Source of the DNA: Pedobacter ureilyticus
Lineage (GTDB): Bacteria; Bacteroidota; Bacteroidia; Sphingobacteriales; Sphingobacteriaceae
Assembly (NCBI RefSeq): GCF_005925345.1
Contig: NZ_SSHJ01000002.1
Span: 310,001 to 374,000 of the forward strand
DNA length: 64,000 nucleotides
Direction of reading: 5' to 3'
Shown: piece by piece, positions 1,976-18,219 of the stretch
How the letters are laid out: each line of letters opens with the position of its first letter
How positions within the stretch are numbered: the stretch's first letter is position 1
The notes under the pieces: generated by a model
The model's database searches: none
What the model was told of the DNA's origin: nothing
Seen by the model: only the letters and a program-made list of their open reading frames with translations
Translations under genes and position numbers: made by a program

Positions 1976-1977
1976 CA

Positions 1978-3278: not shown

Positions 3279-4112
3279 CTAAGCAGCCTGTTGCTTCAGC
3301 CATTTTTTTAACGAAGGAGCTTTGATACGGCTTACCGATACCGACGGAGGTAGTTTGGCCGCTTCCTTAAGGCATAGTTTTACTTTGCCATTTTCCTGTT
3401 TTTCTAACGACTTAACTAAACTTTTGTGGATGATAAATTGTCGGTTCACCCTAAAAAAATCCTGTGCAGGTAGGAGGGCGGTCAATTGGTCTAACGATTT
3501 TTCTATGATAAAAGTTTCTTCATGATTAGTGTGCACGGCTGTTAAGTGATCGGTAACTGTGCAGTAACTAATATTCGAAAAAGCTACGTAAAATTCTTTA
3601 TTCCCTAGTTTAATGGCCAATTTGTTGGGTTGCGCTAAAGGTAGTTTTACATCGGATGGTGTGGTTTCAAAAGATTTGAATGCTCTTAGTAAGCCTAGGG
3701 TAATGTATATGGCGTTTTGCAGTAGCGTCCAAATGGCATAAACCCAGATATGGTGCGTATAAACCACCGTGGGCGTAGGTTTTTGGTAGTAATAATGCTG
3801 AATGGTTTCGTTAATCATTAAGAGCAGGCCGCAGTTAATCACAAGCGCCGCAGGCACCTGCAAAATTATTCTTTGCGCAATGTTTTTTTGGAAAGGATAC
3901 ACTTGGTCTAGCCAAATCACATAACTGCGCATGGCATACCAGCATAGTGTAGTAACCAAGGTGTCTTCGGCAAGCGTCTTAAAAAATCGCAGTGTTAAAA
4001 AAGCATCGGGATAAACAATAAGGATGTCAAACGACCTCATCAAGATGATCAAAAAAGGCATCCATATCAAATCATGGTAGTAATTGCTGTTGTTACTTTT
4101 CATGCGAGGCAA
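3279..4112 (-). CDS. membrane-anchored LytTR-family transcriptional regulator
   Basis: A 277-residue DNA-binding regulator lacking a receiver domain. The N-terminal half holds about four hydrophobic segments (roughly residues 15-34, 50-66, 85-104 and 126-146). The C-terminal part (about 170-270) is a LytTR domain, with FYVAFSNISYCTVTDHLTAVHTNHEE near the start and FFRVNRQFIIHKSLV in the middle, the signature positions of the family. The arrangement suggests a one-component membrane sensor/regulator rather than a response regulator; no histidine kinase lies beside it. A second in-frame ATG three codons in (4103) is an equally possible start. Targets are unknown. Confidence 0.82.
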   Translation of the reverse strand: MPRMKSNNSNYYHDLIWMPFLIILMRSFDILIVYPDAFLTLRFFKTLAEDTLVTTLCWYAMRSYVIWLDQVYPFQKNIAQRIILQVPAALVINCGLLLMINETIQHYYYQKPTPTVVYTHHIWVYAIWTLLQNAIYITLGLLRAFKSFETTPSDVKLPLAQPNKLAIKLGNKEFYVAFSNISYCTVTDHLTAVHTNHEETFIIEKSLDQLTALLPAQDFFRVNRQFIIHKSLVKSLEKQENGKVKLCLKEAAKLPPSVSVSRIKAPSLKKWLKQQAA

Positions 4113-4181: not shown

Positions 4182-4301
4182 ATGGCAAAGCAAAAAGAAA
4201 AAGATCCTTGCTGGTCGGGCTATGAGCAAGCGGGAACAAAGAAAAAAGAAGGAAACACGGTGCCCAATTGTATTAAATCTGATAAGAAATCGAAAAAGTA
4301 A
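4182..4301 (+). CDS. 39-residue basic protein with DPCWxGYEQ...VPNC motif
   Basis: Short gene encoding a lysine-rich protein that starts MAKQKEKDPCWSGYEQ and continues through a lysine-rich turn to VPNCIKS before a lysine tail. The pattern DPCW-x-GYE-x-x-G-x-K-x-K-x-G-x-x-VPNC recurs, from my knowledge, in small bacterial and phage proteins of unknown function, which is why I believe this short frame is real. The two cysteines, 20 residues apart, could bind metal or form a disulphide. It lies just outside the left boundary of the Ter island. No promoter or ribosome-binding site could be fixed. Confidence 0.6.
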   Translation: MAKQKEKDPCWSGYEQAGTKKKEGNTVPNCIKSDKKSKK

Positions 4302-4346
4302 TCGTTGCTGAAAACAACTTTACGTAAGCTTACGAGCGTTCCGTTG

Positions 4347-4491
4347 TTACCATTGTTGGTTAAATTCTACCAGCAACCTAAACAAATTTTCATAAGAGGT
4401 AAATGGCAATGTTTTGGCAATATCATATACATCGTGATAGGCAGTTATTCCACCTTGTGTATACAGGAAAAACGCAGGGACACCTTTTTCT
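4347..4491 (-). pseudogene. orphan 3' end of an M28 peptidase gene
   Basis: Read on the minus strand, this stretch encodes 47 residues: EKGVPAFFLYTQGG, then AYHDVYDIAKTLPFTSYENL, then FRLLVEFNQQW and a TAA stop at 4347-4349. The first 39 or so residues are identical to the C-terminal part of the intact M28 peptidase at 17017-18168. The last 9 are homologous but different (LLVEFNQQW against FLDFNLELMN). Nothing upstream of 4491 continues the gene: the similarity stops abruptly and an unrelated intergenic sequence begins. It is best explained as the original 3' end of the peptidase gene, displaced when the Ter cluster was inserted. Confidence 0.85.
4374..4491 (+). repeat. left 118-bp direct repeat flanking the Ter cluster
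   Basis: Matches 17050-17167 in the same orientation over 118 bases with a single difference (A4443 versus C17119). Outside these limits the two copies differ on both sides. The copy starts at CAACCTAAACAAATTTTC and ends at CACCTTTTTCT. The pair brackets the Ter operon exactly (4492-17049). Confidence 0.95.
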
Positions 4492-4780
4492 CGTTGAAAA
4501 TCGGCTGTTTAAACAATAAATAAATCACGAGCCCTGCTTCGTCATATATAGTCGAGCGAGTACTGTAAAAAATAATGGCATAATTGTGTTGAAGAATATA
4601 TCGATTTAGAAAAAAATCCAAAACCGAGGAAACCATAACTTTTGACAATTATCTCCTGGACAGAATCGCTAATTTTTGATCATATTCAAATATTTGCGGT
4701 TTAAAATTTATATAAACTTAAAGCAATTAAGTTGCTAAGGGTAGGATTAAATTTTATATTTACGGTTATTTGTAGCTATA
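4492..4780. other. intergenic leader region of the Ter cluster
   Basis: 289 bases without a convincing gene. It is very AT-rich, and short frames on both strands look like chance. It begins at the left direct-repeat boundary and ends at the HAD start codon. No integrase remnant or tRNA is visible; the only signal I support is the promoter at its end. Confidence 0.6.
4732..4762 (+). promoter_or_regulatory. putative promoter of the Ter operon
   Basis: TTG (4732-4734), a 20-base spacer, then TATATTTA (4755-4762), one mismatch from the Bacteroidota -7 consensus TAnnTTTG. Its downstream end lies 18 bases before the HAD start codon. Identified from motif and spacing only. Confidence 0.45.
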
Positions 4781-5485
4781 ATGTTTAAGACGAAGTTAAT
4801 AGAAGAGTTTAGTAAATACAAACATATTTCGTTCGATTTATGGTTGACGCTCATTAGGACAAATCCGGCGTTTAAGCCAAAAAGGAACCGGCTTTTTAAA
4901 GACTTTTTTGAGATCGAAAAGCCAATGGAAGAGGTTGCTGCGATAATTAGAAAATTCGATATTCTTACCAATGGGATAAACGAGAAAGTAACTAAAAATT
5001 TTGATACTTATGAAATCTACTGTCTCATATTGGATGCCTTGGGGGTTGAGTTCGACAGTTACAGCCATCAGCAACTGGAAGAATTTTATAAGCTTACAGA
5101 AGCACTGATGTTAGAGTACAAGCCTTTGCTGTTAGATGATAATTTGCCTAGCTTTTTAAAGCAGCTGCATAACGCGGGCAAAACAATGAATATTTTAAGT
5201 AACACCGCTTTTATTAAAGGGCATTCGTTGCGCCACGTGATTAGGCATTACGAGCTAGATTCCTATTTTAATTTCCAAGCCTATTCAGACGAAACTGGTT
5301 TCTCGAAACCAGGTTTGGCGATGTACGAATATGCTTATCAAAACATCCAAAAAATTGTGCCGGTAGCCAAACATGAAGTGATCCACGTAGGAGACAATAT
5401 TGTTTCTGATTATAATGGAGCGCTTGCATTTGGTTTCGAGGCTCATTTATTAATCAACAAAACAACAGATGAATCTAAATTATAG
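4781..5485 (+). CDS. HAD-superfamily hydrolase of the Ter biosynthetic module
   Basis: A 234-residue soluble HAD-fold protein. Motif I is FDLWLTLI near residue 20: the nucleophile Asp is kept, but the second, acid/base Asp of the usual DxD pair is replaced by Trp. Motif II is ILSNT (about 137), motif III Lys in GFSKPG (about 172), and motif IV VGDNIVSDYNGA (about 205) with both acidic residues. It overlaps the phosphoribosyltransferase gene by 17 bases, indicating tight coupling. HAD plus phosphoribosyltransferase genes are known partners in Ter clusters (Anantharaman, Iyer and Aravind), where they are proposed to make a nucleoside-like metabolite. The altered motif I could mean a dehalogenase-like or non-phosphatase chemistry. 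Confidence 0.85.
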   Translation: MFKTKLIEEFSKYKHISFDLWLTLIRTNPAFKPKRNRLFKDFFEIEKPMEEVAAIIRKFDILTNGINEKVTKNFDTYEIYCLILDALGVEFDSYSHQQLEEFYKLTEALMLEYKPLLLDDNLPSFLKQLHNAGKTMNILSNTAFIKGHSLRHVIRHYELDSYFNFQAYSDETGFSKPGLAMYEYAYQNIQKIVPVAKHEVIHVGDNIVSDYNGALAFGFEAHLLINKTTDESKL

Positions 5486-6329
5486 CCGCTATAAAATTAC
5501 CGACAAGCTTAATTGTCCTTTTTCTGAGAGTGAATACAGCAGGTTTAAATTTGGCGATAGCGCTATTGCCCGTAAGTTTGCCGAGGAGCTATTTGAAGGC
5601 TTCATTGCAGAACATATGGATCTGATTTTAGCGCATGAAGATATCGTGATTTTGCCAAGCCCATATCACTCCATTCCTACGGCTTCTAATTATCTTAGTT
5701 TCAATTTCAAGACCAGAATGAACGCTTTTTTATATGATCATGGCAGAAAGTCATTGATAGAATCTAAAATTTATCGCAACCAAACCTATACTACAGATTA
5801 TGGTAACTTAGATTATGAACAGCGTGTTAAGCTGATTGCCAACGATACGTATTATATCGATCGTAATTTTATTGACGGCAAGTTGTGCCTGTTTTTAGAT
5901 GATATTAAAATCACGGGCAGTCACGAGTATATCGTAAAAAAAATACTGGATCAATACAATGTTCAAGGAAAATTTGTATTTATGTATTATGCTGAGCTGA
6001 TCAACAGTGACATACATCCCAACATCGAAAATTATTATAATTATTTTTACGTGAAAGATATTGAAAGCCTTAGTTCTATTTTAAACGCTAAGTCATTCGT
6101 ATTCAATACTCGTACAGTAAAGTATATTTTAAAGCTCGAAAAAAGCGAATTGTTATTGCTGATGGGGCAAGTGACGGAAAATTTATTAGAGCAATTATTT
6201 CACTTAGCAGTAAGTAATAATTATCATACGATAGATGATTATAAAGAAAATCTAACATATATCAATCAGAATATAAAAAACAAAATAACTCAAAATTATG
6301 GCTATCAATTTACAGAAAGGTCAACGTGA
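5469..6329 (+). CDS. phosphoribosyltransferase-fold protein of the Ter cluster
   Basis: A 286-residue protein with the PRPP-binding signature LFLDDIKITGSHE around residues 140-152 (acidic pair followed by TGS, corresponding to DDxxxTGxT of type I phosphoribosyltransferases). Upstream, VILPSPYHSIPTASNYL may form the active-site loop. It is expected to transfer a ribose phosphate to an unidentified base or acceptor. Its start lies inside the HAD gene, and its 3' end overlaps the first TerD gene by 32 bases, so the three are translationally linked. Many Ter clusters also have an ATP-grasp and a second phosphoribosyltransferase; neither is in this window. The family call is firm; the reaction is unknown. 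Confidence 0.8.
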   Translation: MNLNYSRYKITDKLNCPFSESEYSRFKFGDSAIARKFAEELFEGFIAEHMDLILAHEDIVILPSPYHSIPTASNYLSFNFKTRMNAFLYDHGRKSLIESKIYRNQTYTTDYGNLDYEQRVKLIANDTYYIDRNFIDGKLCLFLDDIKITGSHEYIVKKILDQYNVQGKFVFMYYAELINSDIHPNIENYYNYFYVKDIESLSSILNAKSFVFNTRTVKYILKLEKSELLLLMGQVTENLLEQLFHLAVSNNYHTIDDYKENLTYINQNIKNKITQNYGYQFTERST

Positions 6330-6852
6330 GACCCTAAATGCACCAAAGTTCACGATAGGTTTAGGATGGGACACTAACCAAACTTCTACGGGAGCTGCTT
6401 TTGACCTTGATGCATCAGTATTTATTCTGGGCGAAAACAAGAAAATTCTTGCTGATGAGTTTTTTGTGTTTTATAATAACCTGAAATCTCCGGATGAAGC
6501 AGTAGAACATACTGGCGATAACCTTACCGGCGATGGTGATGGCGATGATGAGCAAATTAATGTAGATTTATCTAAAATTGATTCAAGAGTAAGTGAAATA
6601 TGCATTGTGGTAACAATTCATGATGCAGTGGCTAGAAAACAAAACTTTGGACAAGTAAGAAACTCTTTCGTTCGGATAGTGGATTCTGCAACTGGAAACG
6701 AATTGGTGAAATACGAATTGGAAGAGGATTTCTCTATTGAAACCGCTGTGGAATTCGGTAGAATTTATAAAAGAAACAACGAGTGGAAGTTTGAAGCAGT
6801 AGGCGCTGGTCAGCGTGGTGGTTTAGAAGAATACTTAACTAAATACAACTAA
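6298..6852 (+). CDS. terD: TerD-family stress protein (copy A1)
   Basis: A 184-residue TerD-domain protein. It shows the family signature FDLDASVFIL (residues 37-46), then the calcium-binding acidic stretch GDNLTGDGDGDDEQI (about 75-89) and the C-terminal VEFGRIYKRNNEWKFEAVG block. TerD domains bind Ca2+ and act at the membrane-associated Ter complex with TerC. The start ATG lies within the 3' end of the phosphoribosyltransferase gene; MAINLxKGQ is shared by all four TerD proteins here, which fixes the start. It is closely related (roughly three quarters identical by eye) to copy A2 at 9560-10114. The gene symbol is given by family; terD, terE and terZ cannot be told apart safely. Confidence 0.93.
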   Translation: MAINLQKGQRETLNAPKFTIGLGWDTNQTSTGAAFDLDASVFILGENKKILADEFFVFYNNLKSPDEAVEHTGDNLTGDGDGDDEQINVDLSKIDSRVSEICIVVTIHDAVARKQNFGQVRNSFVRIVDSATGNELVKYELEEDFSIETAVEFGRIYKRNNEWKFEAVGAGQRGGLEEYLTKYN

Positions 6853-6854
6853 AC

Positions 6855-7463
6855 ATGGCTATCAATTTAGAAAAAGGACAGCGCATTAACCTAGAGAAAA
6901 GTAATGGGGCCAAATTGCAAAACATTTGCGTGGGCATTAACTGGGGAGCCATTGAAAAAAAAGGTTTATTTGGTACCAAGAAGGAAGCTGTAGATTTAGA
7001 TGGAAGCTGTGCCGTTTATGACGAGAACAAAAGAAATATTGACACGGTAAGTTTTAGACAGCTAAAATCTAAAGACGGTGCCATTAAACACAGTGGGGAT
7101 GACTTAACTGGCGATATGAATGGTGATGACGGCTTAGATAATGAGGTAATCACACTGGATTTAAGCAGGCTGAATCCTGCAGCAAATTATGTAGCGTTTT
7201 TCATCAACAGTTTTCGTGGACAAGATTTTAAGGATATTCCCTTTGCTTCTATCAGAATTTACGAGGGCACACCAACTAGGGTGAACGAGGTGTTTGCTAA
7301 ATACGATATCGCTAACGACAGGGCCTTTGCTGGCAATGTTTCTATGGTGATGGGTGTATTTTACAAAAGAAACGGCGATTGGAAGTTTAATGCCATAGGT
7401 TTGCCAACTTCAGATAGAAACTTAGAGCAAACGGTAGTTACCATTCAACAAAACCATTTGTAG
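6855..7463 (+). CDS. TerD-family protein, divergent type (copy B1)
   Basis: A 202-residue member of the TerD superfamily, more divergent than the neighbouring copy. Recognisable blocks are CVGINWGAI (about 24-32), VDLDGSCAVYDEN (47-59), HSGDDLTGDMNGDDGLDNEVI (calcium-site region, about 75-95) and VFYKRNGDWKFNAIG (about 170-184). It begins 2 bases after copy A1. The same A-then-B order recurs at 9560-10803, so the pair seems to have duplicated as a unit. Ca2+ binding is likely because the acidic residues are kept. Probable cytosolic or peripheral membrane partner of TerC. Confidence 0.9.
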   Translation: MAINLEKGQRINLEKSNGAKLQNICVGINWGAIEKKGLFGTKKEAVDLDGSCAVYDENKRNIDTVSFRQLKSKDGAIKHSGDDLTGDMNGDDGLDNEVITLDLSRLNPAANYVAFFINSFRGQDFKDIPFASIRIYEGTPTRVNEVFAKYDIANDRAFAGNVSMVMGVFYKRNGDWKFNAIGLPTSDRNLEQTVVTIQQNHL

Positions 7464-7467
7464 TATT

Positions 7468-8550
7468 ATGGAAAATAATGAACTTATAATAACGGCACCT
7501 CCCATAGATAAGGAAGGTAATGTAACTTTAGAGAATATTAAGGAAGCTGATTTAGCTACTTACAAAAGTATATCTAATAAGCTTTCTGAAAAAGATGCTA
7601 ATTCTATTCTGAACTTCGGTGCAGAAATACAAAACTCTATTTCTCGCCAGAGCGATACCTTTTTAACTAACGTTAGGGTACAACAGGGCGGTGAAGTAGG
7701 CGGCTTAATCAACGAATTGTTAGCCGAGCTTAATTATATTGATGTTGATGAGCTTAACCAAAATGCCTTTCAAAGGTTTCTATCGAATATTCCTTTCCTT
7801 AAGAAATTTGTAATTGATGTAAAGAAGCTGTTCCAGAAATACGATAAGATTACAGCTAACGTAGATAAAATTAGCAATAAGGTTAAAGCAGGGATGATCA
7901 ACTCTGTGAAAGACAATACTGCTTTGCAAACCATGTTCGATAGCAATGTAAACTTAATCAAAGAGCTTGAAAACTACATTGTAGCAGGTCAACTGAAGTT
8001 TAAAGAACTGAACGAAGAGCTAGCGGTCATGGAAGGTAGTCCAGCGAATTATCAGGATTACGAAATTTCGGATAAGCGAACTTTCATCAACAGGTTAGAT
8101 AAAAGATTGGCTGATATGAAGATTGTGCGTTTTATCATGTTACAATCGTTGGCACAAATTAGAGTGGTGCAAAATAATAATACTTCTATTGCAGAAAAAG
8201 CACAGAGTATTTTAACTACCACCTTGCCAGTTTGGAAAAACCAATTGACTTTAGCTGTAGCCTTACAAAGACAGAAACAAAATATCGAAGTACAGCGTAA
8301 AGTTTCTGAAACTACCAATACCATTTTACGTAAAAACGCGGAAATGCTACAACAAAATAGTATTGAGGTGGCCAAAGAGAATGAAAACACAGTGGTGTCT
8401 TTAGAAACCTTGCAAATGACCACCAAATCACTGATTGACACCTTAAATGAAGTGAAACAGATTCATGAGCAAGGTGCGCAAACCAGAAGAGAGTTAGATG
8501 CGGGGTTACAAAATTTAGAAGCAGAATTGAAAAAAGGAGTAATTAACTAA
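7468..8550 (+). CDS. TelA/KlaA-family toxic-anion-resistance protein
   Basis: A 360-residue, strongly helical, highly charged protein fitting the TelA (toxic anion resistance) family. Supporting features are LNYIDVDELNQNAFQRFLSN early on, the long amphipathic helices, and the end of the domain with QIRVVQNNNTSIAEKAQSI and TTLPVWKNQLTLAVALQRQK (about residues 225-270), a typical TelA C-terminal block. It has no membrane segment and extensive coiled-coil potential. TelA proteins accompany TerD genes in tellurite and phage-resistance clusters; their biochemical function is not settled. It lies 4 bases after the TerD gene and 23 bases before the next start. Confidence 0.88.
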   Translation: MENNELIITAPPIDKEGNVTLENIKEADLATYKSISNKLSEKDANSILNFGAEIQNSISRQSDTFLTNVRVQQGGEVGGLINELLAELNYIDVDELNQNAFQRFLSNIPFLKKFVIDVKKLFQKYDKITANVDKISNKVKAGMINSVKDNTALQTMFDSNVNLIKELENYIVAGQLKFKELNEELAVMEGSPANYQDYEISDKRTFINRLDKRLADMKIVRFIMLQSLAQIRVVQNNNTSIAEKAQSILTTTLPVWKNQLTLAVALQRQKQNIEVQRKVSETTNTILRKNAEMLQQNSIEVAKENENTVVSLETLQMTTKSLIDTLNEVKQIHEQGAQTRRELDAGLQNLEAELKKGVIN

Positions 8551-8573
8551 AACAATCTTCTGGATAATAAGTG

Positions 8574-9557
8574 ATGGTGGAAGGGTTGGAAGAAATATAT
8601 GATCAGCTAATTAGAGACAGTGCGAAAAGGCTGCGGGTGGTAAAAATGTTATCGAACTTTTTTAACCATAAGGATCTATTTGCAGTTTACATTCGTACCA
8701 AGGTAATCCATAACCTGTTTGAATCTAACAAAAGTCTGGATGTAAATAAGCTGGAACTATTTCACGTACAATATACCACCAGTTTAATTGAACTGTTTCA
8801 AAAACTAAAAAAATCTAGAGAGCAACAATACCTGTTAATTACGGATGAGATTTATATTAATGATGATCTCATCAAAAAACTAGAAAAGGAAACAGAAGGT
8901 GATAACTATCAAATTGTAGCCAAAAAGCATGGCACTTTGATGTCTAACAAGCTCAAAGAAATTTATGCCATGTTAGAATCTGGTACCGCTTCTCCAACTT
9001 TTGGCTGGGGCGATATCATGATGTTTTCGGCCCGTAAGGGTAAAGAGTTTTTTAGGGAATTGCCGGGTGGCGAAGCTTTTTTGCAGTTAACGGAATGTGC
9101 CGGTAAAAAGACTTACCAAGCAGAGTATGCTGTAATAGAGAAAAAACTGATCGGAAAGCTTAATAAGTTTAATTTCAGGGTGAAGTTTGCTTGTGGTTTA
9201 AAGTTCGAAAACGAATATGTAGAGGTTTTTGATTTTGTAGATTCGAACGAACAGTTTATATTTATTAATAGTATTAAAACTTTTTACTTGCTCGATGAGC
9301 AAATGTCGGAAGGCTTAGATTTATCAAGAAATAGCTCTGATAAAACAACAATAGCGTGTGAACTGAAAGCGAAGAATGAGTTGTTGCGAGAAAAATTAAC
9401 CACTGTAAAAACATTGCTTCCAGAAACGGTAGAAGAGGTGTTAGCAGGATATTTAAAGAAGATATCAGAAGTTGATTTTTTAGAAGAGCTACAAAATGTA
9501 GACGAGCAGACCAATATTTTAAGGGCAATGTTAAACATCAATATCAACAGCAAATAA
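8574..9557 (+). CDS. unrecognised protein conserved in position within the Ter operon
   Basis: A 327-residue soluble protein; I do not recognise its family. The ATG at 8574 is preferred over the GTG one codon earlier. Residues 1-120 look all-helical (LRVVKMLSNFF, LFAVYIRTKVIHNLF). A central part around 130-200 includes SPTFGWGDIMMFSARKG and FRELPGGEAFLQL, followed by a likely beta-rich stretch. The end (about 250-327) looks like a coiled coil. There are no Cys-rich, nuclease or ATPase motifs. It sits between TelA and the second TerD pair with 2 bases to the next gene, so it is most likely a structural or regulatory partner of the Ter complex. Function unknown. Confidence 0.75.
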   Translation: MVEGLEEIYDQLIRDSAKRLRVVKMLSNFFNHKDLFAVYIRTKVIHNLFESNKSLDVNKLELFHVQYTTSLIELFQKLKKSREQQYLLITDEIYINDDLIKKLEKETEGDNYQIVAKKHGTLMSNKLKEIYAMLESGTASPTFGWGDIMMFSARKGKEFFRELPGGEAFLQLTECAGKKTYQAEYAVIEKKLIGKLNKFNFRVKFACGLKFENEYVEVFDFVDSNEQFIFINSIKTFYLLDEQMSEGLDLSRNSSDKTTIACELKAKNELLREKLTTVKTLLPETVEEVLAGYLKKISEVDFLEELQNVDEQTNILRAMLNININSK

Positions 9558-9559
9558 AA

Positions 9560-10114
9560 ATGGCAATCAATTTAGAAAAAGGACAAAGACAAAATATCAA
9601 CGCTCCCAAATTTACAGTAGGTTTGGGTTGGGATAGTAACAGCAGCAGCACTGGCGAAGCATTCGATTTAGATGCGTCGGTGTTTATATTAGGTGTCAAC
9701 GGCAAGCTCATTAGCGACAGCCATTTGGTATTCTATAATAACTTGAAATCACCAGACGAAGCGGTAATTCACGCTGGAGATAACCTAACGGGTGTTGGCG
9801 ATGGTGACGATGAACAAGTAGTAGTTGATTTGTCTAAAATTTCAGATGCAGTAAATGAAATATGTTTCGTAGTAACTATTCACCAAGCCGAAGCTAGAAG
9901 ACAGAATTTTGGTCAAGTAAGAAACTCTTTTATCCGTATTGTAGACAATGCGAACAATGCAGAGCTTGTTAAATATGAGTTGGACGAAGATTTTTCTATC
10001 GAAACTGCAGTAGAATTTGGCCGACTATACAAAAGAAATAACGAATGGAAATTTGAAGCTGTAGGATCTGGGCTTAAGGGTGGACTTCAAGATTTCTTGA
10101 ACAAATACAACTAA
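9560..10114 (+). CDS. terD: TerD-family stress protein (copy A2)
   Basis: A 184-residue close paralogue of the protein at 6298-6852, with the same length and motif spacing: FDLDASVFILG, GDNLTGVGDGDDEQV (calcium-site stretch) and VEFGRLYKRNNEWKFEAVG. One acidic position differs from copy A1 (GVGDGDD against GDGDGDD), which may change metal affinity. It starts 2 bases after the preceding unknown gene. Codon use and base composition resemble the first copy, so duplication probably occurred within this lineage or in the donor of the whole cluster. Expected to bind Ca2+ and work with TerC at the membrane. Confidence 0.93.
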   Translation: MAINLEKGQRQNINAPKFTVGLGWDSNSSSTGEAFDLDASVFILGVNGKLISDSHLVFYNNLKSPDEAVIHAGDNLTGVGDGDDEQVVVDLSKISDAVNEICFVVTIHQAEARRQNFGQVRNSFIRIVDNANNAELVKYELDEDFSIETAVEFGRLYKRNNEWKFEAVGSGLKGGLQDFLNKYN

Positions 10115-10143
10115 ACCAATTCTTACCAAAATAAACAGATACT

Positions 10144-10803
10144 ATGGCAATTAATTTATCTAAAGGTCAAAAAATTGATCTTAAAAAGAGTACAGGCGAA
10201 ACGCTTACCAATTTTTGTGTGGGTGTTAACTGGGGTGCAATAGAAACCAAAGGGTTTTTAGGCCTAAGCAAAAAAGTGCAGAATATAGATTTAGACTTAA
10301 GCTGTATTCTTATCGACGAGAACAACACTATTTGCGATCACTTATACTCGCCACTTTACCGTGTAGAAGTATTACAGCAATTTGGTTTGCCTAAAGGGAA
10401 ATTAGTTACCGTTGATGGCGCAATGAGACACACTGGAGATGATCTTGAAGGAGATTCTGGTGGTGATGATGGTTTGGATAATGAGATTATCACGGTAGAT
10501 TTAGGCAGAATTTCACCTAATGTTGCTCAGATATTTTTCTTTTTAAACAACGCAGGTAGAGAGGATTTTTCTCAAATTCCGTATTCTAAAATTAGAATGT
10601 ACGAAGGTACACCAACTCATGTAAAATCAGAGTTTGCTTCTTACAATGTTTCTGCGGAATTGCAGTATGTAGGTAAGCAATCTATCATTATGGGTAAATT
10701 GTACAAACGTAACAACGAATGGAAGTTTAGTGCAATTGGTGATCCCACGGAAGACACTTTCTTAGGGCAAACCATACACCGTATTGTTCAATCTTATCTA
10801 TAG
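10144..10803 (+). CDS. TerD-family protein, divergent type (copy B2)
   Basis: A 219-residue paralogue of the protein at 6855-7463. Shared blocks are FCVGVNWGAIETKG, IDLDLSCILIDEN, HTGDDLEGDSGGDDGLDNEII (calcium-site region) and LYKRNNEWKFSAIGDPT. It is 17 residues longer, mainly through an insertion near residues 60-90 (LYSPLYRVEVLQQFGLPKGK). In the first core block, VDLDGS of copy B1 is IDLDLS here. The gap to copy A2 is 29 bases, the first noticeable spacer in the operon. Probable Ca2+-binding Ter complex component. Confidence 0.9.
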   Translation: MAINLSKGQKIDLKKSTGETLTNFCVGVNWGAIETKGFLGLSKKVQNIDLDLSCILIDENNTICDHLYSPLYRVEVLQQFGLPKGKLVTVDGAMRHTGDDLEGDSGGDDGLDNEIITVDLGRISPNVAQIFFFLNNAGREDFSQIPYSKIRMYEGTPTHVKSEFASYNVSAELQYVGKQSIIMGKLYKRNNEWKFSAIGDPTEDTFLGQTIHRIVQSYL

Positions 10804-10806
10804 CAC

Positions 10807-11220
10807 ATGAAAATTAAGAATATTGATGGTCTAAGCGTATCTGAGATACGGGCTATCATAGCTGATGGTGGTAGATTTGTATATTTTCCTTATACTGTTT
10901 CCGTGGTTCTTGCAACTTTTAAAAGAGCATCATCTATCTATTTAATTAGACCTTACGAAAAGTCGATTAAGTATTCTTACCGACATGTGCTAACCAACGC
11001 TGTTGCAGGTTGGTGGGGTATTCCCTGGGGACCAGTTTATACCATTGGTTCTATTTACGCACAAATGCAAGGCGGAAAAGATGTAACCGATGCCGTAATG
11101 AGCGAACTAATGCAGCATGATCCGGAAGCAAATACCAGCACTTACAATATTGGTGGTGTGGTGTCTTCTAATCAGGCGCAAAGCGATGTTAGCACACCGA
11201 CCTATAATATTCCAAAGTAA
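10807..11220 (+). CDS. unknown small protein of the Ter operon
   Basis: A 137-residue protein with no named family that I can recall. The first 100 residues contain RFVYFPYTVSVVLATFKRAS and, later, NAVAGWWGIPWGPVYTIGSIY. These are hydrophobic, tryptophan/glycine/proline-rich segments that could be membrane-associated or form a compact beta/helix domain. The last 35 residues are polar and low in complexity, with the repeated short motif TYNI near the end (TYNIGG and TYNIPK), perhaps a flexible binding tail. It lies 3 bases after TerD copy B2 and 11 bases before TerY-1, so it belongs to the operon. A role linking TerD proteins to membrane or kinase parts is speculation. Confidence 0.7.
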   Translation: MKIKNIDGLSVSEIRAIIADGGRFVYFPYTVSVVLATFKRASSIYLIRPYEKSIKYSYRHVLTNAVAGWWGIPWGPVYTIGSIYAQMQGGKDVTDAVMSELMQHDPEANTSTYNIGGVVSSNQAQSDVSTPTYNIPK

Positions 11221-11231
11221 CTAAAAAACCT

Positions 11232-11867
11232 ATGAGAAGATTACCGGTTTATTTTCTACTAGATACTTCTGGCTCTATGTATGGCGAACCTATACAAGCG
11301 CTAAACAATGCCTTAAGCGGAATGATTAATACTTTGCGTAGCGATGCGCAGGCATTAGATTCACTTTGGTTAAGTATCATTACGTTTGATAGAGAAGTGA
11401 AAGAAATTGTACCGCTTACAGAGCTGGTGCAGTTTCGCTTACCAGAAATTACCTGTCCGCAAAGTGGACCAACAAATACTGGCGCAGCTTTAGATTTTGT
11501 GATGAACAAGGTTAGACAAGACGTGATCAAAGGTTCTGAAACTCAAAAAGGCGACTGGAAACCTCTGTTGTTTCTCTTTACTGATGGTAAACCAAGCGAC
11601 GTACAATTGTACCACGAAAAAACGGCTGAAGTACGAGCTTTCGATTTCGGTGCGGTAGTAGGTTGTGCTGCTGGTCACTTAGCAAACGATTCCATGTTAA
11701 GACAGTTGACAGATAATGTGGTTCACCTAGATTCAGCAGATAGCCAAACGCTTAAAACGTTCTTTAAGTGGGTTAGCGAAACCATAGAACAGGGCAACAA
11801 AAGTCAAGGTACGGGCGAAGTTTCTAAACTGCCGCCACCGCCTAGTGAAATTACAGTGGTTATTTAG
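11232..11867 (+). CDS. terY: TerY-type von Willebrand A domain protein 1
   Basis: A 211-residue single-domain VWA protein. The metal-ion-dependent adhesion site is intact: DTSGS (residues 9-13), a Thr in GPTNTGAALDF (about 80-90) and Asp in FTDGKPSD (about 115-122). It is cytoplasmic, with no signal peptide. TerY proteins are Mg2+/Mn2+-binding scaffolds; in the TerY-P triad they act with the PP2C phosphatase and protein kinase found just downstream here. The next gene begins with almost the same N-terminus (MRRLP(V/I)YFL), pointing to a tandem duplication. The short C-terminal tail is proline-rich. Confidence 0.9.
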   Translation: MRRLPVYFLLDTSGSMYGEPIQALNNALSGMINTLRSDAQALDSLWLSIITFDREVKEIVPLTELVQFRLPEITCPQSGPTNTGAALDFVMNKVRQDVIKGSETQKGDWKPLLFLFTDGKPSDVQLYHEKTAEVRAFDFGAVVGCAAGHLANDSMLRQLTDNVVHLDSADSQTLKTFFKWVSETIEQGNKSQGTGEVSKLPPPPSEITVVI

Positions 11868-11877
11868 TAGCAAAGCT

Positions 11878-12927
11878 ATGAGAAGACTTCCGATATATTT
11901 TCTAATCGACATTTCAGAGTCGATGGTTGGCGAACCTATACAACAAGTTGAGGAAGGGCTGGCCAGTATAGTTCAGGCTTTAAAAGCTGATCCTTACGCC
12001 TTAGAAACAGTTTGGGTATCCATCATTGTTTTTGCTGGCAAACCCAAAACCTTGGTGCCTTTGCAAGAGATCGTGAACTTTTATCCACCTCGTTTTCCAA
12101 TAGGTAGTGGCACTTCTTTGAGCAAAGGCTTGGGGCATTTAATGTACGAACTGCGTAGCAACATCGTGAAGACTACTTACGATCAAAAAGGAGATTGGAA
12201 ACCGATTGTCTTTTTGTTCACCGATGGTGTACCGACAGACGACAGTAATGCCGCTATTGGTGAATGGAAACGTAATTGGCAACGTTCTGCCAATATGATT
12301 GCCATTTCTTTTGGTAACGAAGCGGATAGTGCGTTGCTAGGTCAACTGACTGATGAAGTACATTTATTTAAAAACACTTCTCCGCAATCTTACAAAGAGT
12401 TTTTTAAATGGGTTTCTGACTCAATTAAAACCAGTAGCATTAGTGTAGAAAGTAACGCTACAGGTTTCGAATTGGCTAAAACAGATAACGATACCATTTC
12501 TAAAATAGACTTGAGCAAAGCAGCGGATAAAGTGCCTTCGGTAGATGATAATTTTGTGGTACTTGCTGCAAAATGTCAAAACACCAATCGCCCTTATTTA
12601 ATGAAGTATACCAAAAACTTGAACGAAGGAGACATTGGTGGAATGAAATTATACACCAAATCTTATCGCTTGGCTGGTGCATTTCCAGTAGATCAATCTT
12701 ATTACGAACTGGCGGATGAAAAGGTAGAAAACCGAATTCACAGCGATGAATTGATTGGTGCGCCTAATTGTCCTTGCTGTGGTAATCCTTATGGTTTAGC
12801 CGTTTGCGCTTGCCAAAAAATACACTGCTTGGGCGAAGAGTTAGAGAGCACTTGCCCTTGGTGCGGTACAAAAGGTAAATATGGCGTAGGTGGCGGTGGT
12901 TTCGATATCTCAAGAGCCCAAGGCTAA
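11878..12927 (+). CDS. terY: TerY-type VWA protein 2 with C-terminal zinc-ribbon region
   Basis: A VWA domain (about residues 1-200) with MIDAS residues DISES, SGTSLSKGL and FTDGVPTDD, followed by a linker and a domain ending in a cysteine-rich module: CPCCGNPYGLAVCACQ, then HCLGE, then CPWCGTKG (about 295-340). This looks like a multi-zinc ribbon. The start is set at the ATG of MRRLPIYFLID (11878), matching TerY-1; an upstream in-frame ATG at 11845 lies inside TerY-1 and is less likely. The stop overlaps the phosphatase start (TAATG), so translation is coupled. The downstream kinase also ends in a zinc ribbon, suggesting matched interaction modules. Confidence 0.88.
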   Translation: MRRLPIYFLIDISESMVGEPIQQVEEGLASIVQALKADPYALETVWVSIIVFAGKPKTLVPLQEIVNFYPPRFPIGSGTSLSKGLGHLMYELRSNIVKTTYDQKGDWKPIVFLFTDGVPTDDSNAAIGEWKRNWQRSANMIAISFGNEADSALLGQLTDEVHLFKNTSPQSYKEFFKWVSDSIKTSSISVESNATGFELAKTDNDTISKIDLSKAADKVPSVDDNFVVLAAKCQNTNRPYLMKYTKNLNEGDIGGMKLYTKSYRLAGAFPVDQSYYELADEKVENRIHSDELIGAPNCPCCGNPYGLAVCACQKIHCLGEELESTCPWCGTKGKYGVGGGGFDISRAQG

Positions 12928-14321
12928 TGACCGAAACTGAACAGTACTTAAGGTCACTTCTGCAACAGCAAGGCATCACGGTAGGCGAACATCTTAATGA
13001 TCTGCTCAAAACCTTCGCAGCTGGAGACGAAAATATAACTAGCGTAAAAAACATTCGGCTACTGCAACACAACATGACAAAAGATTGGAAATTAATAGCG
13101 AGAAGAGCAGATATCAATGCGTTGCAGTTGGCCTTTCCCAATGGGATCGTTGGAAAACCTTATCAAGCCGAATTTGATTTTAAAGCTTTTGGTTTGGAAG
13201 ATATTATCAGTTTCCAATTAACAGGCTTTGAAAATACAGGACTAGCTTTTGATAAAAATACCAAAGTCATTAATGGGACTCCACAAAATAGCGGAGATAT
13301 TTCTTTGTTGTTTAGCTATAAAATTGATGGTGAAGAAGCAGAGGCCCCGTTAAATGAGAAAAAGGTTACGATTATCATCAATCCAGATCCTAAATCGCTT
13401 TGGAAAGATCTTCCAAGTAATGCGGACGATAAGTATGCGAAAGCAGATAGCGTGGTAGAAACGGCGCCTTTTTTAGATTTTACTTTCACTGCAGGATCAA
13501 AAAGAGGTCGTTCCCATGCCAATAAAGGTAGCTTTAGAGATGATGATTATGCTTATGCCGAACTAGAAAATGATTGGGGGATAGTCGCAATTGCCGACGG
13601 TGCTGGCTCTGCAAAGTATGCTCGAAAAGGTTCCGTGATAGCTTGCAATACGGTTATCGCTCATTTGCAAGCTAATTTTAATGCTGCCAATACGAGTTTA
13701 TTGGAAGAGGCAATCGAGATTTACTCCAAAGATCAATCAGTAAAATCAAAACTGCTGGATATTGTTGCGCAACATTTATCCGCCGCCGCGAAAAAAGCAT
13801 TTACGGAAATACAAAAATTGGCAATTGAAGAAGGTGTAACTACAAATGATTTCCATACCACCTTGGCTTTTGTGCTGGTAAAGAAATTTGCATCAGGTTA
13901 TGCTTTTTTAAGCTTTGCTGTCGGCGATTGTCCCTTGGTTTTAGTAGACAGGTCATTTGAATGGGTAAAGCCATTGAACAAGCTCGATGTCGGCGAATAC
14001 GGCGGTGGTACTAGGTTTATCACCATGGAAGATATTTTTGCTAAAGAGAACTTTCAAGAAAGGTTTAATTTTGAATTTACCCCAGAATTGTCTTATGTAG
14101 TTTTGATGACTGACGGTATTTACGATCCTAAATTTGAGGTAGAAGCCAATCTGTCTAAACCAGAAAAGTGGAAAGCTTTTTTTGATGATTTAGATGGAAA
14201 TAATACTGAAGGTGTAAGCGTGAAATTTAACGACGGTTACACCGCTAAAAACCTGTCAGATTGGATGGATTTTTGGAGCCCGGGTAACCATGACGATAGA
14301 ACTTTAATTGTTTTATCTTAA
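12927..14321 (+). CDS. PP2C-family serine/threonine phosphatase of the TerY-P triad
   Basis: A 464-residue protein. The N-terminal part (about 1-160) contains a possible Ig/cadherin-like segment (FPNGIVGKPYQAEF and INGTPQNSGDIS resemble putative-Ig folds). The C-terminal half is a PP2C domain with VAIADGAGSAKYARKGS (metal-binding Asp), FAVGDCPLVLVD, VLMTDGIYDP and HDDRTLIVLS at the end. These supply the acidic residues for two metal ions. It should dephosphorylate Ser/Thr residues placed by the neighbouring kinase. Its ATG overlaps the stop of TerY-2. The Ig-like N-terminus is unusual for a cytoplasmic phosphatase and may bind a Ter partner. Confidence 0.9.
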   Translation: MTETEQYLRSLLQQQGITVGEHLNDLLKTFAAGDENITSVKNIRLLQHNMTKDWKLIARRADINALQLAFPNGIVGKPYQAEFDFKAFGLEDIISFQLTGFENTGLAFDKNTKVINGTPQNSGDISLLFSYKIDGEEAEAPLNEKKVTIIINPDPKSLWKDLPSNADDKYAKADSVVETAPFLDFTFTAGSKRGRSHANKGSFRDDDYAYAELENDWGIVAIADGAGSAKYARKGSVIACNTVIAHLQANFNAANTSLLEEAIEIYSKDQSVKSKLLDIVAQHLSAAAKKAFTEIQKLAIEEGVTTNDFHTTLAFVLVKKFASGYAFLSFAVGDCPLVLVDRSFEWVKPLNKLDVGEYGGGTRFITMEDIFAKENFQERFNFEFTPELSYVVLMTDGIYDPKFEVEANLSKPEKWKAFFDDLDGNNTEGVSVKFNDGYTAKNLSDWMDFWSPGNHDDRTLIVLS

Positions 14322-14434
14322 GACCATTTGTAAACTTAATTAGGCATTTCGTAATGCTGAATTTAATTCAGTATCAACAATTAGGAATAAATAATAAATT
14401 TAGGGTTAAATCATCCCATAAGCCACGTTAAATA
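14322..14434. promoter_or_regulatory. 113-base spacer with short palindrome inside the Ter operon
   Basis: The largest gap inside the operon, between phosphatase and kinase. It holds a 15-base palindrome (CTGAATTTAATTCAG, 14357-14371) and an AT-rich TAAATTTA at 14395-14402. It could be a weak internal promoter or operator; no T-run follows the palindrome, so it is not a typical terminator. Confidence 0.3.
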
Positions 14435-15955
14435 ATGAATACAGTAACCGTGCGGTCGGTGAACGACCCTAGCAAAACTTACCAGTTTAATGATAACGGC
14501 GAACCGATGAGGGGAGGGCTAAAAGATGTTTATTTCAGTCCAGATAAGTCTTACGTAGTAGCTTTGTTTAGGGACAAGCTAGATGACAATCAGAAAGAGC
14601 GCTTAAAAAGAATTACCAATTACTACCTGCCCCAAATACAAAATAAAGAAGCCGCTGATTATTTTTTGGAAGAAGTTTTTCGTTGGCCTGCCGATGTTAT
14701 CGAGCACAAAGGTTTAACAGGTATCATAGTTCCTGCTTACAAAGGCAAGTTTTTCTTTAAACAGGGGCACGAAACTGGAGACTTAATTAAGGGTAAAGAA
14801 AAGAACGGAAAATGGTTTGCCGCGGCGAAGTTTAGGAATGAACAATTTCCGTTAAGAGTGGCAACGGCTGAATTGGGAAATTGGTTAAGCTATTTTCAAA
14901 TCTGTATAAACTTAGTGCGTGGCGTAAAGAAAATGCATGCCATGGGTTTGGCGCATTCAGATTTATCGTACAATAACGTGCTGATTGACCCGATAGAAAA
15001 AGCAGCATGTATGATAGATCTAGATGGTCTTGTAGTGCCAGGTTTGTTTCCCGCGGAGGTAATTGGTACCGCAGAGTTTATTGCGCCAGAAGTTTTAGCC
15101 ACCAAGCATCTAGATAAAAGTGATCCTAATAGGATTTTGCCAAGCAGATTAACAGATTTGCATGCATTGCCCGTCTTGATTTATATGTTTTTGCTGCATC
15201 GTCATCCGTTAAAGGGAGGCAAAGTACACAACTTAGATACCGAAATGGATGATTTGTTGTCGATGGGAAAAGGAGCTTTGTTTATCGAACATCCAACAGA
15301 TCATAGTAACAGGCCAAAAATAGGCAGGTTCTCTAAGTGGGATTTGCCTTGGAGCGATATCACTAAACTGCCTTACACCATTACAGGTCCGTATTTAACA
15401 GAAATGTTCAATCGTGCTTTTATCGATGGCCTTCACAATCCACAAGAAAGACCACCAGCCGAGAGCTGGGAACAGGCTTTATTAAAGACAGTTGATTTGA
15501 TGCAACAGTGCACAAATTCGTCTTGTAGCCAAGGTTGGTACGTGTTTGATAATTCGACAGAACCTAAATGCCCATTTTGCGGCACAAAACATAAAGGAAC
15601 ACTACCAATACTCGATTTTTATTATGAATTTAGTCCCGGTGTTTGGAAAGCGGATAATGCAAGGTTAATGGTATACAATAACCAGTATTTGTTTAACTGG
15701 CATGTAGACCGAAATGTGGTGCGTAACGAGCGACTAGATCCAAAAGATAAAATTCCGGTAGGTTATTTTACTTTTTATAACGACAAGTGGGTTCTGGTAA
15801 ACCAAAAACTGGAAAACATGAGAGATTTAACGGAAGACAAAGATGTGCCCGTTAACGGAATGGTAGAACTTACGCAGGGTAAAAAACTACTTTTGTCCAC
15901 TAAAGAGGGAGGAAGATTAGTACTGATTACAATAACAAACCAAGAAAAATCATAA
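14435..15955 (+). CDS. Ter-associated protein kinase with C-terminal zinc ribbon
   Basis: A 506-residue eukaryotic-like protein kinase. The glycine-rich region is degenerate (RGGLKDVYFSPDKSYVVALF). The catalytic loop reads HSDLSYNNVLID near residue 170 (HxD...N) and the metal-binding DFG is DLDG. EFIAPEVL resembles the APE activation-segment end. After the kinase domain, CTNSSCSQGW and CPFCGTK (about 355-390) form a zinc ribbon, followed by a beta-rich tail. It completes the TerY-P triad of TerY, PP2C and kinase, known to co-occur in Ter clusters. Atypical N-lobe motifs leave nucleotide specificity open. TerC starts 14 bases downstream. Confidence 0.9.
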   Translation: MNTVTVRSVNDPSKTYQFNDNGEPMRGGLKDVYFSPDKSYVVALFRDKLDDNQKERLKRITNYYLPQIQNKEAADYFLEEVFRWPADVIEHKGLTGIIVPAYKGKFFFKQGHETGDLIKGKEKNGKWFAAAKFRNEQFPLRVATAELGNWLSYFQICINLVRGVKKMHAMGLAHSDLSYNNVLIDPIEKAACMIDLDGLVVPGLFPAEVIGTAEFIAPEVLATKHLDKSDPNRILPSRLTDLHALPVLIYMFLLHRHPLKGGKVHNLDTEMDDLLSMGKGALFIEHPTDHSNRPKIGRFSKWDLPWSDITKLPYTITGPYLTEMFNRAFIDGLHNPQERPPAESWEQALLKTVDLMQQCTNSSCSQGWYVFDNSTEPKCPFCGTKHKGTLPILDFYYEFSPGVWKADNARLMVYNNQYLFNWHVDRNVVRNERLDPKDKIPVGYFTFYNDKWVLVNQKLENMRDLTEDKDVPVNGMVELTQGKKLLLSTKEGGRLVLITITNQEKS

Positions 15956-15969
15956 TTAACCGATAAATA

Positions 15970-16959
15970 ATGGACAATCTAATTAATCACCCTGGTATTA
16001 TATCAGCATTTTCAGTAGTTATTATCATTATGCTACTACTGGATTTGGGCGTTTTCAACAAAAAAAGTCACGAAGTATCTAACAAAGAAGCTATCACTTG
16101 GTCTTTAGTGTGGATCAGTCTTTCCATGCTCTTTAGTGGTGTAATTTACTACTATATGGGGGTTGAGAAGTTCTCGCAATTTCAATCAGCCTATTGGATA
16201 GAAAAAGCACTTTCTGTTGATAACCTTTTCGTCTTTATTCTAGTATTTGGGTTCTTCAACGTTCCTAAACATTTGCACCATAAAGTATTATTTTGGGGAA
16301 TTATTGGAGCTTTAATTCTTCGAGCCATTTTTATTTTTAGCGGTGTAGGTTTAATTAAACTTACCTATTTGCCAGAAATGGAAATTTTAGGCTACAATCT
16401 TAAAATAAATGCAGTACTTACTTTATTCGGTATATTCTTAATCTATGCAGGTATCAAATCTTGGTTTGCAGATGATGATGGTGATGAAGAAAAGGATTTT
16501 AACACCAGTCCTGGCGCTAGAATTGTACATAAATTTTTTAAAGTGAGCTCTAATTACGATGGTGATAAGTTTTTTACAATACTGAATGGAAAAAAGTTGG
16601 CAACACCTTTATTGGTAGTAGTTGGCGTAATTGAGTTTACAGATTTACTTTTTGCTGTAGATTCTATTCCAGCTATTTTTGCTATAGCACCAGATGATCC
16701 ATTTATTCTTTATACATCCAATATCTTTGCAATCTTAGGTTTAAGAGCACTTTATTTCTTATTGGCAAATTTTATCCATTTGTTTAGCAAATTGAAATTT
16801 GGTTTGGCTATTATTCTTGCTTTTATTGGTGTAAAAATGGTAATTTCTCCAATTTATCATATAGAGTCTATCCATTCTTTATTAGTAGTAGCGGGTGTGT
16901 TAACCTTATCTGTATTGGCATCAATTATGTTCCCCGAAAAAACAGCAGAAAGAAACTAA
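15970..16959 (+). CDS. terC: TerC-family integral membrane protein
   Basis: A 329-residue TerC/Alx-type protein with about nine hydrophobic segments spread over its length. Family motifs are AYWIEKALSVDNLFVFILVFGFFNVP (given in parts: IEKALSVDNLFVF, then FGFFNVP; about residues 75-100) and EFTDLLFAVDSIPAIFAI (about 220-240), both containing conserved acidic residues inside membrane helices. It is the membrane hub of the Ter complex; Alx/TerC proteins have been linked to Mn2+ export. It ends the operon: a strong terminator follows within 10 bases, and the convergent peptidase gene ends beyond it. Confidence 0.93.
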   Translation: MDNLINHPGIISAFSVVIIIMLLLDLGVFNKKSHEVSNKEAITWSLVWISLSMLFSGVIYYYMGVEKFSQFQSAYWIEKALSVDNLFVFILVFGFFNVPKHLHHKVLFWGIIGALILRAIFIFSGVGLIKLTYLPEMEILGYNLKINAVLTLFGIFLIYAGIKSWFADDDGDEEKDFNTSPGARIVHKFFKVSSNYDGDKFFTILNGKKLATPLLVVVGVIEFTDLLFAVDSIPAIFAIAPDDPFILYTSNIFAILGLRALYFLLANFIHLFSKLKFGLAIILAFIGVKMVISPIYHIESIHSLLVVAGVLTLSVLASIMFPEKTAERN

Positions 16960-16967
16960 AATTAATT

Positions 16968-17014
16968 ATAAGAAGGCTTCTAATATTGCTCATTTCGGGG
17001 CCTTCTTATTTTTT
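16968..17014 (+). terminator. terminator of the Ter operon
   Basis: Inverted repeat ATAAGAAGGC (16968-16977) with GCCTTCTTAT (17000-17009), then a T-run. The stop codon of the convergent M28 gene lies 3 bases beyond, so this hairpin may also stop minus-strand transcription. Confidence 0.8.
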
Positions 17015-17016
17015 AG

Positions 17017-18168
17017 TTAATTCATCAACTCCAAATTGAAATCCAAAAACAACCTAAACAAATTTTCATAAGAGGTAAATGGCAATGTTTTGGCAATATC
17101 ATATACATCGTGATAGGCCGTTATTCCACCTTGTGTATACAGGAAAAACGCAGGGACACCTTTTTCTGAAAAAAAATAATGGTCGCTGTTGGCTGCTTTG
17201 CCTCGTGGATTGATTTTGGGTAAATACTTTTGCTGATCGTTGATTTTGTTTAATACCTCAAAGGCTTTTGGGTGTATCGTGGCATTCACTATAGTAGCAC
17301 CTTCATCGCCATTTCCCAATAAATCTAAATTCCACAAAAAGCGAATGTTTTTTAGCGGAAATAAAGGGTTTTCTGTAAAGTACTTTGAGCCTAACAGCCC
17401 AATTTCTTCGGCAGCAAAAGCAATAAAGACAATACTATACTTTGGTGGGTTGGCAGCATAATACTTTGCCAGGTTTAACAACATGGCAACGCCGCTGGCA
17501 TTATCATTTGCTCCCGGGAAGTAGGTTTTATTTCCCATGCCACCTAAATGATCGTAGTGTGCAGTAAATACAATTATCGAATCTGGTTTGGTGGTTCCTT
17601 TAACCATAGCCATAACATTAGCTGCGGTAAAATTTGTAACAAATTCATTTTCGATATTGACTTCAAAGTTCGAAAGTTGAAACGGAACTGTTTTATTATT
17701 GATTTCGATTAGGGTATAATCTAACACTTTTTGCGAAACAGACCACGTTAGTTTAGGTGCCAAACTAACAGCAACATTACCTTTTTTACTTATATAGGTA
17801 AGACTATCCTTACGGATTAAACTGTCGCTGGTTTTAATCCCTTTGCTGGCCTGGTGTACAATGAAATCTTTTCCTGGGTTTAATTTCTTGCCATTTATTT
17901 TCAATTCCATTTTTGAAGGAAAGGTATTTACTGGAAATGAAAAATATTGCTTATACCCCACTTCGCTTAACGGAGATAATCCAAAGCTTTTCATTTCATT
18001 CTCGATAAAATCTGCAGCGTTAGCCATGCCGTTTTTGGTATAGCCCCTGCCCCAGTATTTTTTAGAGGTTAAGGTTTTAACGGTTTTTTTTGCATAGGGT
18101 AAATCTTGTGCAGCCACATTAAAACATGTAGAAAAGAAACATAAAAATAAGATAGAAAAACGGGACAT
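17017..18168 (-). CDS. exported M28-family zinc aminopeptidase
   Basis: A 383-residue periplasmic or surface metallopeptidase. The start at 18168 gives a clean signal peptide (SRFSILFLCFFSTCFNVAAQ); an earlier in-frame ATG would add 14 residues. Zinc ligands of clan MH are visible in order: HYDHLGG (His), GANDNASG (bridging Asp), AAEEIGLLGS (catalytic Glu plus Glu ligand), NLDLLG (Asp) and SDHYFF (His). It should release N-terminal amino acids. The last 49 codons contain the right 118-bp direct repeat. The final 10 residues (FLDFNLELMN) lie beyond the repeat and probably came with the Ter island, replacing the original end now stranded at 4347-4373. Confidence 0.92.
   Translation of the reverse strand: MSRFSILFLCFFSTCFNVAAQDLPYAKKTVKTLTSKKYWGRGYTKNGMANAADFIENEMKSFGLSPLSEVGYKQYFSFPVNTFPSKMELKINGKKLNPGKDFIVHQASKGIKTSDSLIRKDSLTYISKKGNVAVSLAPKLTWSVSQKVLDYTLIEINNKTVPFQLSNFEVNIENEFVTNFTAANVMAMVKGTTKPDSIIVFTAHYDHLGGMGNKTYFPGANDNASGVAMLLNLAKYYAANPPKYSIVFIAFAAEEIGLLGSKYFTENPLFPLKNIRFLWNLDLLGNGDEGATIVNATIHPKAFEVLNKINDQQKYLPKINPRGKAANSDHYFFSEKGVPAFFLYTQGGITAYHDVYDIAKTLPFTSYENLFRLFLDFNLELMN
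17050..17167 (+). repeat. right 118-bp direct repeat flanking the Ter cluster
   Basis: Same orientation as 4374-4491 with one substitution (C17119 versus A4443). It lies within the C-terminal coding part of the M28 peptidase gene. Identity ends abruptly on both sides. See the left copy for interpretation. Confidence 0.95.
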
Positions 18169-18173
18169 ACTAA

Positions 18174-18219
18174 AAATGCTTTGTGCCACAAGATATAAAT
18201 TTGTGGTCACAAAGCATTT
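18174..18219 (-). terminator. hairpin terminator between the DUF6607-like and M28 genes
   Basis: Twelve-base arms AAATGCTTTGTG (18174-18185) and CACAAAGCATTT (18208-18219), extended inwards by CCACAA/TTGTGG with a one-base bulge. On the minus strand the stem is followed by a short T-run. It lies downstream of the DUF6607-like gene and just before the M28 start, so it likely ends the iron-locus transcript. Confidence 0.65.

Follow-up and report, generated by a model that had tools for sequence, protein, structure and literature searches.

How did a cluster of Ter genes, of the tellurite and stress-resistance kind, come to lie between two copies of the 3′ end of one peptidase gene in Pedobacter ureilyticus? 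The question is posed by a stretch of 64,000 nucleotides (assembly GCF_005925345.1, contig NZ_SSHJ01000002.1, positions 310,001 to 374,000; hereafter the window). An initial annotation of this window, made from its letters alone, had proposed that an element integrated into the 3′ end of an M28 peptidase gene and supplied a replacement end, as genomic islands do. Our comparisons with relatives support late insertion of the Ter cluster at the M28 3′ end. As to the route, we lean, with somewhat better than even confidence, toward a recent RecA-type insertion of ordinary Ter DNA into a variable locus, either by crossover of a circle or by homology on one side and an illegitimate join on the other. 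The argument begins with the following features.

4347..4373, minus strand: displaced M28-like 3′ end, closing on LVEFNQQW and a stop (tail comparisons)
4374..4491, minus strand: left repeat copy, a stub of the M28 3′ end (repeat and own-genome searches)
17017..17049, minus strand: M28 3′ end now in use, closing on FLDFNLELMN and typical of the family (tail profile)
17050..17167, minus strand: right repeat copy, within M28 (repeat search)
17017..18210, minus strand: intact M28 peptidase gene, right border of the variable interval (Pfam PF04389, E 7.9e-40)

Both repeats were recovered at exactly the coordinates first proposed for them, 118 bp in the same orientation on either side of the Ter cluster, with a single mismatch (A at 4443, C at 17119). 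The right copy lies, as had been stated, within the intact M28 open reading frame (ORF; 17017-18210, minus strand). Ungapped extension of the pair to 132 nt yields 95% identity; identity between the copies, 99% across the 118 bp, falls sharply past the repeat end, where 8 of 15 nt agree. When 4347-4600 was used to search the whole genome (4.98 Mb), the two repeat copies were found and no further one. The source assembly is a draft of 52 contigs, and a short repeat can join wrong paths in such a draft, so that the layout might be an assembly artefact at the 118-bp repeat. Counting against this, both flanks hold genes of the same locus in relatives, and ordinary short reads or read pairs are longer than 118 bp; we regard an artefact as scarcely credible.

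The two copies run into different ends. The C-terminus encoded by the left copy together with 4347-4373 is ENLFRLLVEFNQQW followed by a stop, and that of the intact gene is ENLFRLFLDFNLELMN followed by a stop. The mean match of the 15 nt past the left repeat copy to the tails of 12 relatives was equalled by 24 of 25,594 sampled 15-mers of the window. The motif LVEFN was also scored against a protein profile of 43 distinct tails from the genus, where it was equalled by 63 of 95,885 window 5-mers. Because both agreements are above chance, the left end is probably a real M28-like end, though an unusual one. The profile was built from 78 loci, with some genomes contributing several, and the tail of one locus (L011) lacking the motif was dropped. 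It gave the left end 7.2 bits and the right end 13.9 bits, with a family mean of 14.2. The left end has eight residues after LFRL, a length shared by one other tail; 35 of the 43 tails have ten. The M28 ORF itself is intact with a family-typical end by Pfam and the tail profile. An uninterrupted M28 gene ending LLVEFNQQW had been expected in relatives; a degenerate search for LVEFNQQW allowing at most one mismatch in 399 genomes of the family found the end in the own genome only, and no conspecific genome was found.

Which of the two ends belonged to the resident gene? The evidence comes from the left flank, within the interval between a tRNA gene and M28.

1904..1976, plus strand: tRNA-Arg(CCT), left border of the variable interval, its 3′ end facing the M28 3′ end (ARAGORN)
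4182..4301, plus strand: 39-aa gene, convergent with the left M28 stub (homologs in genomes G163 and G167)

The 39-aa gene lies 45 bp from the stop of the left copy. Homologs about 89% identical to it occur between tRNA-Arg and M28 in Pedobacter xixiisoli CGMCC 1.12803 (G163; L168:3034-3147) and in G167 (L169:7313-7197), and none was found in any other genome among the 261 loci compared. Because a gene of this same interval adjoins the stub, the left copy is tied to the old locus and is the likelier original end. It would follow that the end of the intact gene came with Ter. In our view the left copy probably preserves the M28 3′ end from before the insertion, and the family-typical end now in use would have been supplied by the insert.

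M28 itself is a long-standing gene of the genus. Its right-hand neighbours are conserved across the genus loci compared (GNAT and ArgG genes and, in many genomes, DUF6607, PepSY and TonB genes as well). With at most five candidates scored per genome, its 3′ part was matched in 74 of 145 genus genomes, twice in P. ureilyticus only and once in each of the other 73. Likewise, no second M28 3′ fragment was found in 39 loci from 37 genomes, where the sequence compared downstream of M28 can be as short as 0.7 kb (L126) and a far fragment could there be missed; two loci each hold one split gene. In G145 the M28 gene is split by a frameshift (L124 and L165). The initial annotation had also suggested looking for the same 118-bp segment around other cargo, and neither the 73 other matching genomes nor the 37 examined at the locus offered a second copy of the M28 3′ end or a case of its repeated use as an insertion site. 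The 118 bp and the left flank had no match in a plasmid collection, and the degenerate M28 motif had none in viral contigs. The layout proposed for a 3′-end insertion is supported, in that relatives carry M28 without a second fragment, the stub stands beside the 39-aa gene and the Ter-side end is the family-typical one.

These counts bear on the alternative that the initial annotation had itself offered. Under an old M28 duplication, Ter would have entered between tandem ends, the left gene would have decayed to a stub, and gene conversion would keep the 118 bp identical. A left tail that is M28-like yet divergent is consistent with such a history, and identity breaks off abruptly at the two edges of the repeat, as it would in a homology-limited conversion tract. 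No tandem M28 genes occur in the 37 genomes of relatives examined, however, and a stub ending exactly at the tract edge requires an extra event; we do not favor this explanation and hold it improbable. Whatever the route, one mismatch in 118 bp, compared with 81.7% nucleotide identity between the M28 genes of P. ureilyticus and G145, indicates that the duplication, or the last conversion, is recent relative to the split from G145.

For the RecA-type insertion that we prefer, the course of events may be pictured as follows. Incoming DNA would have carried an ordinary Ter cluster of chromosomal type, bounded on the right by 3′-terminal sequence from a closely related M28 allele, and in this lineage would have recombined with the resident M28 gene. 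A crossover within the M28 homology on the right would leave the gene intact and give it a new end typical of the family; what remained on the left, beside the 39-aa gene, would be the 3′ stub of the resident M28, made up of 118 bp and its own end. RecA-type recombination is the most likely step, whether a circle entered by a single crossover or homology served on one side only and the left join was illegitimate, and the event was recent. We infer that the left end is the original one, the direction of transfer, and the agency of RecA rather than of a recombinase. Circle, one-sided and integrase models alike place the recipient end on the left and the donor end on the right, and it is the enzyme and the recurrence that tell them apart. 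Since the unit holds no recombinase and the relatives examined show no other insertion at the M28 3′ end, a RecA-type event is favored. The one-sided form has a counterpart in homology-facilitated illegitimate recombination, in which homology at one end is combined with an illegitimate join at the other (PMC3240628). The process could leave a partial direct repeat. The source speaks of small linear DNA, whereas the insert here is about 12.5 kb (PMC3240628).

Several observations weigh against this account. No M28 gene with the supposed original end turned up among the 399 family genomes, and that end is the less typical of the two (7.2 against 13.9 bits). The 39-aa gene was not found in the intervals of G086, G151, G131, G132 and G066 or in the G145 stretches examined; in G163 and G167 at least three genes part it from M28, and its adjacency to the stub is unseen elsewhere. 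The intergenic sequence beside the left stub has no special hairpin (z 0.10). A donor with Ter directly beside M28 was not found. Finally, the abrupt drop from 99% to 8 of 15 nt is not accounted for by a plain crossover between alleles, nor by a plain attachment (att) site, unless the allele was already a mosaic or gene conversion followed. No model explains the drop fully, and it suggests mosaicism of the allele or gene conversion.

The site-specific alternative has its model in e14, which carries its own recombination functions. By analogy, the M28 3′ end would be a bacterial attachment site (attB), the insert would supply the replacement end, and the recombinase would lie elsewhere or have been lost. 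Two reports describe e14 in Escherichia coli icd as leaving an intact icdA with the element-side end and a displaced icdC on the far side, its loss restoring the old allele (PMC4759930, PMC2973815). The M28 locus has the same topology, with insertion at the 3′ end of a protein gene, the probable new end on the intact gene and the probable displaced end on the far side, here beside a gene of the old locus; e14 yields the same picture in its icdA/icdC pair (PMC4759930). The icd alleles are 12 single-nucleotide polymorphisms apart and recombination occurs at 11-bp repeats (PMC4759930), unlike the 118-bp repeat of 99% identity, the sharply different tail and the lack of an integrase found here. 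Also in favor of site-specific integration, the own genome has 16 tyrosine-recombinase matches, all of them outside the window.

Several results stand against it. The initial annotation had seen no integrase, and likewise none was found when the unit's 14 larger ORFs (4492-17049) were scanned with Pfam. M28 3′ ends show no recurrence of insertion in relatives, and the best inverted repeat inside the 118 bp, a possible core, is no better than those of shuffled sequences (56 of 100 shuffles equally good). No recombinase was found beside Ter in the scanned ORFs of P. xixiisoli (17; 10 in the left 14.7 kb and 7 in the right 9 kb) or in the 7 scanned on the right side alone in Flavobacterium sp. 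MFBS3-15. The nearest match in the own genome (C12:303135-303575) is a truncated ORF of 110 aa, 6.4 kb left of the window and beside an IS21 pair, and MetG and MscS separate it from the tRNA. Site-specific integration of the e14 kind therefore seems to us unlikely. Somewhat less likely still is a non-autonomous Ter element that would use the M28 3′ end as its attachment site, swap the C-terminus on entry and exit, and rely on a recombinase elsewhere in the genome. Taken together, the island reading of the initial annotation is retained for late Ter insertion at the M28 3′ end and not for a dedicated island of integrase type, with neither integrase nor recurrence to speak for it.

The truncated recombinase was considered as a mobilizer in its own right. 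A truncated tyrosine-recombinase ORF and IS21 istA/istB lie together 4-7 kb left of the window start (L287:12088-15018). MetG and MscS, which are neighbours also in G151 and G145, intervene before the tRNA, and the candidate was ruled out.

What was inserted, and from where? Between the repeats lie the following features.

4492..4673, no strand: private spacer from the stub to the Ter block (no match in 261 non-own loci compared)
4674..16950, plus strand: Ter block common to P. xixiisoli (blastn 81.5% over 9669 bp and 82.5% over 2521 bp; Pfam), with genes for HAD, PRTase_3, four TerD, TelA, two vWA proteins (one with TerY_C), PP2C, a kinase, TerC and two proteins without a Pfam family
16960..17016, no strand: intergenic sequence from TerC to M28 with a terminator-like hairpin (fold of 16955-17020, z -3.27)

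The 14 larger forward ORFs comprise 12 with Pfam families and 2 without, and TerD, TelA, TerC and TerY-type families occur in one cluster (PF02342 four times, PF05816, PF03741 and PF15616). The closest relative of the cluster is that of P. xixiisoli (G163, L178), whose kinase is 92% identical as protein. Gene order is the same and nucleotide identity is 81.5-82.5% over 4674-16950, apart from an unaligned stretch of 111 bp (14321-14431); 4492-4673 and 16951-17049 fall between the shared block and the repeats. The P. xixiisoli cluster, in contrast, lies away from M28, flanked by a gene for a TonB-type receptor and by tRNA-Lys. A recent transfer from that species was ruled out: the 13 Ter genes compared are 73.7-86.5% identical in nucleotides, about equal to or slightly above four core genes (72.6-81.8%).

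Counting the own genome, 17 of the 145 genomes of the genus carry the Ter kinase gene, and 24 of the 399 of the family do; the 17 do not include G145, G086, G151, G167, G066 or G131. Ter was seen at the tRNA-Arg-M28 locus of none of the relatives compared. Of 2338 plasmid records matched with the kinase, 2337 are below 60% identity, and the plasmid records therefore contain no near source for it. Ter clusters between direct repeats are known from OI-43/OI-48 of E. coli O157:H7 (PMC3064760). Those islands carry iha besides, and excision is known for them only; in the unit at M28 no integrase was found.

Is the M28 tail a preferred site, or is the whole interval variable? In P. ureilyticus the interval from the tRNA 3′ end to the M28 stop spans 15.0 kb (1977-17016). 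The same tRNA stands beside MscS in 11 relatives, and its distance to M28 is 39 bp in G151 (order MscS, tRNA-Arg(CCT), M28, measured from the tRNA 3′ end to the M28 stop), 2.7 kb in G086, 4.1 kb in both G163 and G131, 9.0 kb in G167, 12.0 kb in G132 and 16.9 kb in G066. The same two genes lie next to M28 in G086, G163 and G167, and G066 resembles G132; the remaining contents differ. In tRNA-bearing G017 and G095, M28 is tens of kb away on the same contig, and in G033 M28 gave no strong match. G145, whose MscS is the closest (87%), carries a rearrangement that we read as an inversion; it breaks the interval at the tRNA and at M28, and the stretches examined there hold no Ter gene. By these comparisons it is the whole tRNA-Arg-M28 interval, rather than the M28 tail, that appears as the variable place, and we regard it as a hypervariable locus of this Pedobacter clade.

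The tRNA end of the interval suggests a further explanation, a composite island at tRNA-Arg(CCT), in which 1977-17016 would have arrived by tRNA-targeted integration and the stub would be M28 DNA picked up by imprecise excision. From base 1977, the first after the tRNA, the sequence departs from the common sister-type terminator. Among 12 genomes, six have the sister terminator after the tRNA, G167 has a related one, and five differ (P. ureilyticus, G017, G033, G131 and G132). Full tyrosine recombinases (PF00589, PF13102, PF17293) lie 9.9 kb past the tRNA in G017, which also has type I restriction genes there (Pfam), and 10.8 kb past it in G033. Integration at tRNA-Arg(CCT) is likely. For the island itself the picture is less favorable. 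The 39-aa gene, which belongs to the interval, lies within the stretch, and no second copy of the tRNA 3′ 20-mer (up to four substitutions) was found in the window or in L170, L171, L174 and L175. The sister-type terminator, as a displaced element end, was found neither in the window (up to three mismatches) nor in the own genome (exact gapped pattern). No integrase, transposase or second tRNA was found across 1977-17016 by ORF and tRNA scans and by Pfam searches of the longer, non-overlapping ORFs. Islands in tRNA genes of the Islander type are alike in that variable DNA starts at the tRNA-Arg(CCT) 3′ end and recombinases occur in G017 and G033, and unlike in that no duplicated tRNA 3′ end was found and Ter is bordered by M28 repeats (PMC4383910). 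A composite island thus appears highly unlikely.

Two accessory genes occupy the interval between the tRNA and the 39-aa gene.

2035..3216, minus strand: beta-lactamase-family serine hydrolase (PF00144)
3279..4112, minus strand: LytTR-domain protein (PF04397)

The serine hydrolase has two matches in 261 non-own loci, at 37.5% and 27% identity and both in other genera. The LytTR protein was found in the own genome only among 145 genus genomes (E≤1e-40) and, the own genome included, in 3 of 340 genomes of the order (E≤1e-15). An adjacent pair 37-45% identical to the two (2035-4112) is present in another genus of the family (L288, G383). Between MscS and the tRNA lies a 164-aa gene (1338-1832) without a Pfam family, matched in G086 only (63%; 261 loci compared).

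On the RecA-type reading, the Ter insertion appears to be an isolated recombination event in a region of frequent DNA gain and loss in this group of bacteria. As a case of gene gain it is good but unremarkable, and a possible excision can be tested in it. Comparison with relatives places the entry of Ter into a Pedobacter chromosome, and the tRNA-Arg(CCT)-M28 interval offers a usable marker for gene gain in this clade. The locus suggests that an integrase is not the only possible source of island-like direct repeats at the 3′ end of a gene. Were the unit still able to excise, gain or loss of Ter would go together with a switch of the cell between two M28 C-termini.

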